DNA of 64,000 nt, taken from NCBI GenBank assembly GCA_004298385.1, contig SCTX01000082.1:1-64000 (forward strand), written 5' to 3'. Both the position numbers and the translations under genes were made by a program. The notes below the pieces were generated by a model. It was not told the origin of the DNA. It saw only the letters and a list, made by a program, of their open reading frames with translations, and did not search any database. Shown in pieces: positions 16,132 through 42,049 of this stretch (the stretch's first letter is position 1; every line of letters starts with the position of its first letter). Source of the DNA: Betaproteobacteria bacterium (GTDB lineage: Bacteria; Pseudomonadota; Gammaproteobacteria; Burkholderiales; SG8-39).

Positions 16132-16896
16132 ATGTTGGGATTTTTCAAAACTTGGCGCAGAAAACGCGTGCTGCGAAACGAAAGGCTGGACCAGTCACTG
16201 TGGCAGCGGGTAACCGGCAGCCTGCCTTTCCTGCGCGGCCTGACGGCTGCGGAAGAGCAGCGTTTGAAGGAATGCGCCGCGCTGTTCCTGGACGAGAAGG
16301 AAATGCACGGCGCGCGCGGCTTTGTCCTGACCGATGCGGTGCGCCTTTCGATCGCGGTGCAGGCCTGCCTGCCCATCCTCAATCTTGGCCTGGACGCCTA
16401 CCAGGGCTGGGTGGGCATCGTGATCTATCCGGGCGAATTCAAGGTGCGGCGCGAGGAAACGGACGCGAGCGGCGTGGTGCACGAATACGACGATGAACTC
16501 TCGGGCGAAGCCTGGCCCGGCGGGCCGGTGATCCTTTCCTGGCAAGACGTCAAGCTGGGCGCGGCTGGCTACAACGTGGTGATCCACGAATTCGCGCACA
16601 AGCTGCATATGAGCGGCGGCGATATGGACGAATTTCCGCTGCCGCACGCGGATATGGATCGCGAGCGCTGGCTGGCGGTGTGGGATTCGGCCTACGACGA
16701 TTTTTGCGACAACGTCGACCGCGGTATGAACACCGTGATCGATCCTTATGCAAGCGAGCAGCCGGCGGAGTTCTTCGCCGTGCTCACCGAAGCTTTTTTC
16801 ACCGCGCCGCGGACAGTGCGTTCGCTTTATCCGGAACTCTATGGCCAGTTGGCCCTGTTCTACCGGCAGGATCCGGCTGCGCGGGTTCAGGCGTAG
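16132..16896 (+). CDS. mtfA: MtfA-family (M90) zinc peptidase
   Basis: MLGFFKTWRRKRVLRNERLD...NVVIHEFAHKLHMSGGDMDEFP; HEFAH motif. Confidence 0.87.
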   Translation: MLGFFKTWRRKRVLRNERLDQSLWQRVTGSLPFLRGLTAAEEQRLKECAALFLDEKEMHGARGFVLTDAVRLSIAVQACLPILNLGLDAYQGWVGIVIYPGEFKVRREETDASGVVHEYDDELSGEAWPGGPVILSWQDVKLGAAGYNVVIHEFAHKLHMSGGDMDEFPLPHADMDRERWLAVWDSAYDDFCDNVDRGMNTVIDPYASEQPAEFFAVLTEAFFTAPRTVRSLYPELYGQLALFYRQDPAARVQA

Positions 16897-16914: not shown

Positions 16915-17148
16915 GCGCGCTGCGCGCGCCAACCGTGTTTCCCGCGCGGACGAAAAACGTATCCGCACGGAAAACACGGTTATGAATAAAACCAAAATCG
17001 GTTTGGGGTGGCTTTTGTCCAAGATCGTCGATTGCGCGCGGATGTGCTTTTCATCCGTGCGCTATCGACGATCCGCGCGGACGGCTTCTCGTCCGCGCGA
17101 CATCTCAACCCCGCAACGACGGGGCGCGAATAATGTCGCCGTGTATAG
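16915..17148 (-). repeat. Modular palindromic intergenic repeat, copy A (inverted relative to copies B and C)
   Basis: GC box 16915-16930, hairpin-2 16931-16981, hairpin-1 17023-17073, clamp hairpin 17074-17099, left module to 17148; same modules as 38240-38471 and 41775-41934. Confidence 0.9.
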
Positions 17149-37175: not shown

Positions 37176-38183
37176 TCAACAGTAAGTGGGGCGTCCGCTA
37201 ATGGCATAGCGCGGATCGTTGAATCCCGGCGTTGACGGGTGCCCGCTCTTGACCATGGAATCGACGAGCGCCTCGTCCTCCGCGGAAAAACGATGCTCCA
37301 GCGCACCCAGGTACTCGGTCCATTGCTCGAACGTGCGCGGCCCCGCCAGCACCGACGTGACGATGCGATTGTTGAGCACCCAGTTGAGCGCGAACTGGCC
37401 CGCGCTCATGCCGCGCTTCCCCGCATGCGCCTTGAATTTCTGTGCCATGGCAAGGGACTCCTCGCGGAACTCGGTCTCCATCATGCGCTTGTCCTTGCGC
37501 CCGGCGCGGCTGTCGGCGGAAGGCGCCTCGCCCGGCACGTACTTGCCGGTGAGCACGCCGCGCGCGAGCGGGCTGTAAGGCACCACGCCCAGGCCGTAGC
37601 AGGCGCAGGCCGGCAGGATCTCCGTTTCCGGCATGCGGTTCATCGCGTTGTAGTAAGGCTGGCATACGATCGGCGCCGGCAGGCACAGCTTGGCGCACAG
37701 CTCGGCGATCTGCGCGATGCGCCAAGCGCGGTAGTTCGATACGCCGAAATAGCGCGCCTTGCCCGAGCGAATGATGTCGCCCATCGCGACCAGCGTTTCT
37801 TCGATCGGCGTGTCGGGGTCGTCGTGGTGCAGATAATAAATATCGACATGGTCCATGCCCAGGCGTTTCAGGCTGCCGTCGATTGCGCGCATGATCCAGC
37901 CGCGCGACAGGCCGGTTTCGTTGGGGCCCTTGCCCATGGGGTTGCCGACCTTGCTCGCCACCACCCACCGGTCGCGATCATCGGCAAGCAGCTTGCCGGC
38001 AAGCCGCTCGGATTCGCCCCTGGCGTAGACGTCGGCGGTGTCGATGAAGTTGATGCCCGCGACTCGCGCCGAATCGACGATGCGGCCCGCTTCGGCGGCG
38101 TCGGTGCTCGCGCCGAACATCATCGTGCCGAGGCAAATGGGCGAGACTTTGATGCCGCTATTGCCCAGTTTGCGATATTCCAT
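37176..38183 (-). CDS. Aldo/keto reductase
   Basis: MEYRKLGNSGIKVSPICLGTMMFG...FIDTADVYARGESE...DIYYLHHDDPDTPIEETL. Confidence 0.93.
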   Translation of the reverse strand: MEYRKLGNSGIKVSPICLGTMMFGASTDAAEAGRIVDSARVAGINFIDTADVYARGESERLAGKLLADDRDRWVVASKVGNPMGKGPNETGLSRGWIMRAIDGSLKRLGMDHVDIYYLHHDDPDTPIEETLVAMGDIIRSGKARYFGVSNYRAWRIAQIAELCAKLCLPAPIVCQPYYNAMNRMPETEILPACACYGLGVVPYSPLARGVLTGKYVPGEAPSADSRAGRKDKRMMETEFREESLAMAQKFKAHAGKRGMSAGQFALNWVLNNRIVTSVLAGPRTFEQWTEYLGALEHRFSAEDEALVDSMVKSGHPSTPGFNDPRYAISGRPTYC

Positions 38184-38239
38184 GTCACTCTCCCTTAAAG
38201 AACACTATCATCCTTAGCGCGACCGAGGATCCCTCTTTT

Positions 38240-38471
38240 CTATACGTGGCGACGTAAATTGCGCCCTCGTTGTTACACAATTGCGATGTTGCGCGGACGA
38301 GAAGCCGTCCGCGCGGATCGTCGATTGCGCGCGGATGAAAAGCGCATCCGCACGCAATCGACGATCTTGAATAAAACCCCCACGGCCTGTTTGGTGTTAA
38401 CAATAACAGTGTTTTCTGTACGGATGCGCTTTTCATCCGTACAGAAAACACGGTTGGCGCGCGCAGCGCGC
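38240..38471 (+). repeat. Modular palindromic intergenic repeat, copy B
   Basis: Left module CTATACGTGGCGACG, clamp 38291-38314, hairpin-1 38316-38366 (22-bp arms), hairpin-2 38409-38451 (18-bp perfect), GC box 38456-38471. Confidence 0.92.
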
Positions 38472-38474
38472 AAA

Positions 38475-38506
38475 GCCGCTGTTGCCCAGTTTCCGATATT
38501 CCATGT
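38475..38506 (-). repeat. Duplicate of the first 10 codons of the aldo/keto reductase gene (30/32 nt match to 38154-38185)
   Basis: GCCGCTGTTGCCCAGTTTCCGATATTCCATGT versus GCCGCTATTGCCCAGTTTGCGATATTCCATGT. Confidence 0.88.
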
Positions 38507-41614: not shown

Positions 41615-41707
41615 AATTGCTCATCCTTTTTCGATGCGGTCCGGTACCGCCTCTACCAATCTTACCGAACGATTATGGCATCAAATCGACGCGCATCCTA
41701 ACGCGGT

Positions 41708-42049
41708 CGCTGGCCGCAACCAAAATGACCAGAACATTCGCGCTGATGTGGCAATCGTTGCGGGGTAATTGCATAACCCAGTTTTCTGAACGGATGTGCT
41801 TTTCATCCGTTCAGAAAACTGGGTTGGCGCGCGCAGCGCGCAGGTTTTGGCAAGACCTGCGCGGACGAAAAACCGTCCGCGCGGATCGTCGCTTGCGCAC
41901 GGATGAAAAACGCATCCGTGCGCAAGCGACGATCTTGGATAAAACCCCCACGCCATGTTTGGTGTTTACCTTAGCGCTGCCGCTGGCCGCAACCAAAATG
42001 ACCAAAACATTCGCGCGGATGCGGCAATTGTCGCGGAGTAATTGCATAA
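41708..42049. repeat. 69-bp direct repeats (41708-41776 and 41981-42049, 63/69 identical) flanking repeat copy C
   Basis: CGCTGGCCGCAACCAAAATGACCARAACATTCGCGCKGATGYGGCAATYGTYGCGGRGTAATTGCATAA present on both sides. Confidence 0.9.
41775..41934 (+). repeat. Modular palindromic intergenic repeat, copy C (circularly permuted module order)
   Basis: Hairpin-2 41775-41825 (perfect 22-bp), GC box 41826-41841, clamp 41859-41882, hairpin-1 41884-41934 (perfect 22-bp). Confidence 0.93.

Follow-up and report, generated by a model that had tools for sequence, protein, structure and literature searches.

The 64,000-nucleotide stretch analysed here (the window), taken from the draft MAG of an uncultured Burkholderiales bacterium, carries three copies of a dispersed repeat which we consider, with a probability of roughly 0.7, to be a non-autonomous, TA-inserting element with terminal inverted repeats (TIRs) that carries a mosaic, BIME-like hairpin cassette. 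The complete form measures 275-281 bp (~280 bp) and comprises, in this order, the left module with its TIR, a clamp hairpin, a first hairpin (H1), a spacer, a second hairpin (H2), a GC-rich hairpin and the right module with its TIR. H1 and H2 have 22-bp stems with loops of 7-9 nt and stand in mutually opposite orientation; H1 is preceded by CGCGCG and mostly followed by TTG, while H2 mostly follows CAT and precedes GGCGCG. The TIRs are imperfect, 19 bp long and start with TA, the left end being TATACGTGGCGACTTAAAT and the right end, reverse-complemented, TATATACGGCGTCTTAAAT; the termini are of the TATACGNGGCGACTTAAAT type, and 15 of the 19 positions of the pair are identical in an ungapped comparison. 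The element is apparently gene-less, with hairpin modules occupying its length, and stable folds are predicted on both of its strands. Such an element joins features of MITEs and BIMEs, which are usually treated apart, in uncultured bacteria.

Copy A lies on the minus strand at 16915-17147, between mtfA (Peptidase_M90, ending at 16896) and a convergent alpha/beta hydrolase gene, and both this location and the modules and coordinates named by the earlier note were confirmed. Its left TIR TATACACGGCGACATTA, which starts with TA and has 18 similar left ends in the genome, forms together with the left module the stretch 17099-17147 (the left module as the earlier note had delimited it covers 17131-17147). 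On the same strand follow the clamp hairpin GCGCGGACG-AGAAGC-CGTCCGCGC (17075-17098), H1 (17023-17073; stem of 22 bp with a GATC foot, a CGGATG apex and an A-rich loop), the spacer (16982-17022), H2 (16931-16981; stem likewise of 22 bp, with an AACC foot and with apex and loop in the reverse orientation to those of H1) and the GC box hairpin GGCGCGCGCAGCGCGC (16915-16930). H1 and H2 both show covariation, and the spacer of other copies contains a weak internal hairpin, AAAAGC..GCTTTT. Folded as single-stranded DNA, copy A was more stable than every one of its dinucleotide shuffles (z = -8.5; 0/200 shuffles as stable). With a left terminus but neither right module nor right TIR, this copy is right-truncated.

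The same modules had also been proposed at 38.3 and 41.8 kb. Both matches to copy A are real (81% over 238 bp and 89% over 89 bp, respectively, both sites on the plus strand), but only the first shares its layout. Copy B consists of the left TIR (38241-38259) with the left module (together 38241-38290), followed within 38291-38471 by the clamp (38291-38314), H1 (38316-38366), the spacer, H2 (38405-38455) and the GC box (38456-38471); its core scored 194 bits with the covariance model R1 and, like copy A, it is right-truncated and has no right TIR. A 32-bp stretch from the start of an aldo/keto reductase gene (38154-38185) is duplicated at 38475-38506 with 94% identity, and this duplicate sits beyond copy B, at the expected position of the right terminus. 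Copy C is permuted, with the order H2-GC box-linker-clamp-H1. H2 (41775-41825, with a perfect 22-bp stem) and the GC box span 41775-41841, and the short linker AGGTTTTGGCAAGACCT, the clamp (41859-41882) and H1 (41884-41934, likewise with a perfect 22-bp stem) span 41842-41934 and scored 116 bits. This core is flanked by a 77-bp direct repeat (41699-41775 and 41972-42048, 88% identical): a long alternative spacer module stands on its left (41699-41774), and on its right the left half of the spacer is followed by a second copy of the long module (together 41935-42048), all on the plus strand. Since the 77-bp module is also found at three other loci (L182, L186, L189), it is part of the mosaic and not of the host site.

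The element is far more abundant than these three copies. With copy A as query, BLAST gave 69 matches in the source genome (G000), and a covariance model trained on 24 copies gave at least 150 scored strand matches; once the two strands had been merged by hand, at least 89 core matches without mutual overlap remained, distributed over about 70 sites. The reading of the genome covered the stretches around matches. Restriction to three sites, which the earlier note had set as a refuting outcome, did thus not occur. Its statement that the repeat fits no nameable family also holds: Rfam gave no match above the curated cut-off in the window and, for copy A, only sub-threshold matches, none of which was credible at relaxed thresholds, and searches of plasmid, phage and viral collections gave zero matches.

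The mode of insertion is best read from empty orthologous sites, which were sought by joined-flank searches, as had been suggested, and were found, with TA duplicated at several of them. In genome G011, one filled site reads CAAT[TA]TACG..CGTATA[TA]TATCC (C177), compared with CAAT-TA-TATCC at the empty site in G000 and G005, and a second insertion (C54) shows the same TA duplication relative to the empty GAAT-TA-G in G000. The C5 site of G000 is empty in ten genomes of the genus, with TA at the junction in three and CA in the others, and TA is also present where G008 and G010 lack an insertion. Two other sites have CA or CG instead of TA in the empty genomes available, which fits a duplication of 2 bp and is no proof of TA. 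Given this precise insertion at TA with duplication of TA, the behaviour of the complete form is that of a MITE, a TIR element that does not move autonomously. In the comparison of G000 with G011, the C5 site is filled in G000 only and the C177 and C54 sites in G011 only; these differences in both directions imply movement since the two genomes parted. Apparently one further insertion site is shared, being filled both in the named MAG SKS1.bin129 (L046) and in G000 (L005), so that some copies seem to be inherited rather than new. A deletion derivative that kept both ends and lost nearly all of the core was seen at L065 (1500-1614), at a site that is empty in G010.

We therefore favour the MITE-like reading for the complete form, bounded by its TA-starting imperfect TIRs, which inserts at TA and duplicates it, as seen at several sites. 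The most likely mover would be a TA-targeting DDE transposase of the IS630/Tc1-mariner type acting in trans. Against this reading stand the tandem and permuted arrays, which are untypical of MITEs, the many copies without one or both TIRs (complete copies with both are L005, L032 and L034), and the search for an IS630-type transposase: an IS630 DDE gene (PF13358) was not detected in G000, a draft MAG, and none of the 16 IS630 loci of the genus, which also come from draft MAGs and are partly cut by contig ends, has matching TIRs. Likewise, a search of G000 with the left TIR for a longer autonomous element returned the 18 left ends mentioned above, all of which belong to this element or to its truncated or deleted derivatives. 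MAGs often lack genes that are repeated in the genome, and an autonomous partner could be absent from the G000 assembly, which is a draft. With no transposase being visible, the mobiliser is a concrete target for further work.

An alternative mover could be a RAYT (Y1/HUH) transposase whose gene lies elsewhere in the genome, with H1 and H2 as REP-like single-stranded hairpins of a REPIN/BIME system. The traits of BIMEs are indeed seen: inverted hairpin pairs, alternative linkers, tandem copies and positions at the 3' ends of genes. The orientation of the loops is moreover conserved, as strand-specific recognition would require, and Y1 genes, for the most part matching RAYTs weakly, were found in 11 of 14 genomes of the genus and in 11 of 12 other positive genomes of the family; as these counts cover element-positive genomes, they do not constitute a correlation of Y1 genes with the element. 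However, no Y1/RAYT locus examined (the loci fetched from among the Y1 matches) showed the arrangement that the earlier note proposed to look for, a RAYT gene between copies of these hairpins; near one fragment there is an IS200-type gene. Furthermore, the GTAG tetranucleotide is absent from the hairpin foot in both the H1 and the H2 contexts, the genome G002 has 118 strand matches of the model and no Y1 match, though it is 89% complete, and complete copies have TIRs and duplicate TA. Mobilisation by a RAYT is consequently quite improbable in our view, and since neither a flanking RAYT at the loci examined nor a GTAG foot was found, we did not file the element under REP/REPIN. The original description as "REP/BIME-type or MITE-like" is hence right in outline: its MITE half is borne out by the TIRs, the TA duplication and the empty sites, and its BIME half by the inverted hairpin pairs, tandem arrays and sites downstream of genes, whereas a REP/RAYT affiliation was not supported. 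At the level of the hairpins, the element may nevertheless work in a REP-like manner.

The hairpins themselves have evolved with their pairing preserved. Within one genome, double changes that keep the pairing were found at 20 of 59 pairs, compared with 7.2 in shuffles (0/500); the shuffles leave relatedness in, and still none of the 500 reached any of the pair-counting measures. Sliding of the pairing partners abolished the covariation signal. Variation is concentrated in the mid-stem, while foot and apex are nearly fixed, and on the same strand the loop is A-rich in 85 vs. 0 cases for H1 and T-rich in 110 vs. 1 for H2, a constancy which argues that the hairpins are not being flipped. Such drift of the stems under kept complementarity, with nearly fixed feet, apices and loops, suggests that it may be a folded strand that is recognised or maintained. 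Alternatively, pairing could be kept by mutation instead of selection, with template switching in the palindrome copying one arm onto the other; this would compete with our account of how the pairing arose and leave that of the insertion untouched. Truncated and permuted copies, too, have long stems with perfect or near-perfect pairing, and this, as well as the many double changes and few broken intermediates, is what template switching would leave behind. It accounts less well for a mid-stem that varies while feet, apices and loops are fixed, for loops that do not flip, and for mismatches that persist, e.g., the A.C at position 16 of H1, present in 31 of the 92 distinct H1 sequences, and we regard it as possible but somewhat unlikely. 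In either case, dozens of paralogous paired stems with sequence turnover provide a natural data set for setting selection on a folded nucleic acid against palindrome-correcting mutation. Two further signals were considered and set aside: the strand bias of the wobble pairs does no more than suggest a functional strand, the H1 signal coming from two positions, and loop-loop pairing between H1 and H2 gave a weak signal (P = 0.004, uncorrected for relatedness) that we do not rely on.

The position of the element relative to genes could hint at a role on the RNA level. According to an ORF and GC3 heuristic, 24 sites lie between convergent, 28 between co-directional and 2 between divergent genes, with 7 overlapping a predicted ORF and 4 at an edge. 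Gene pairs of the window, classified by the identical heuristic, are 5 convergent, 33 co-directional and 5 divergent, which corresponds to a convergent excess with Fisher p = 0.0007, on a small baseline of one window. A preference for locations downstream of genes is shared by REP families (PMC3733652). At least one gene lies upstream of 52 of the 54 classified sites, and this, together with stable folds on both strands and strong covariation, would suit hairpins whose main role is that of RNA structures in 3' untranslated regions, e.g., in mRNA stabilisation, RNase III processing or termination, with this function maintaining the pairing. Such a role would be compatible with transposition; we nevertheless consider it unlikely, as the orientation relative to co-directional genes is about even (13 vs. 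15), Rfam gave no match, and the excess of G.T vs. A.C suggests one strand for H1 and the other for H2, with the H1 part resting on two positions. For the TA-inserting element, the predominance of 3'-end insertions would most likely reflect selective removal of copies from promoters and genes.

Among known systems, RUP of pneumococcus and the Correia/NEMIS repeats of Neisseria are short repeats that do not code for protein, carry TIRs with TA at the ends, duplicate their target site and are present in many intergenic copies (PMC2229807, PMC5039591), and the element described here shares TIRs, TA ends, target-site duplication and high copy number with them. It differs in its size of about 280 bp, in not being AT-rich, and in its several internal covarying hairpins and mosaic or tandem forms. 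RUP, moreover, has a matching IS630, whereas no matching IS was found for this element. The Correia repeat begins with TATA, as does this element, but no relationship is shown, since an ungapped comparison gives identity at just 10 of 25 positions. REP/BIME/REPIN sequences form inverted hairpin pairs with variable linkers and tandem arrays between co-directional or convergent genes (PMC8266576, PMC3733652), all of which applies here too; the 22-bp stems, the loops of 7-9 nt, the TIRs and the TA duplication set the element apart, as do the missing GTAG foot and the lack of a hairpin-flanked RAYT among the examined genes. CGTC-tagged REPs, with stems of 8-9 bp and CGTC as an unpaired tag on one side (PMC3733652), are likewise hairpin repeats without a known dedicated transposase, but the stems here measure 22 bp and their feet are GATC or AACC. 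A further system is the Caulobacter CIR, an intergenic repeat of two long hairpin arms and a linker with TA termini (PMC2229807), which shares these features with our element and differs, in a comparison by description only, in being listed without terminal inverted repeats and in occurring in Caulobacter and Brucella.

Beyond the source genome, strand-match counts are at least 150 or close to that number in most genomes of the genus, with just 3-10 matches each in G003, G006 and G012. The range within the family is patchy, with matches in 9 of 26 genera including its own; G071, e.g., has four strand matches and its sister G070 none, and some outlying matches are weak and strongly diverged. 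Named records carrying the core are MAGs assigned to Burkholderiales, Betaproteobacteria or Proteobacteria, one of them titled groundwater. Cassettes without TIRs occur in tandem or permuted series with alternative linkers both in this genome and in related genera, and the H2-linker-clamp-H1 order of copy C recurs in G018 and G042, which belong to other genera. In other genera, the stems of ~20-22 bp are nearly perfect while the mid-stem sequence is largely replaced. We infer that the cassette, in which H1 and H2 in opposite orientation are combined with the clamp and the GC hairpin, is older and that enclosure between TIRs is one way in which it has been packaged. More speculatively, and with considerable doubt, the hairpins could represent an old superfamily across the family (stems of ~22 bp with a free mid-stem, conservation of the foot, the apex and an A-rich loop, arrangement in inverted pairs) that would serve as substrate of an enzyme recognising folded single-stranded DNA, with one lineage having repackaged the cassette inside a TIR element. 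At two loci of G073 (L246 and L261) there are hairpins in alternating orientation, with TCTCC as foot and GGGTC or GGAGC as apex, which are possibly a strongly diverged relative.
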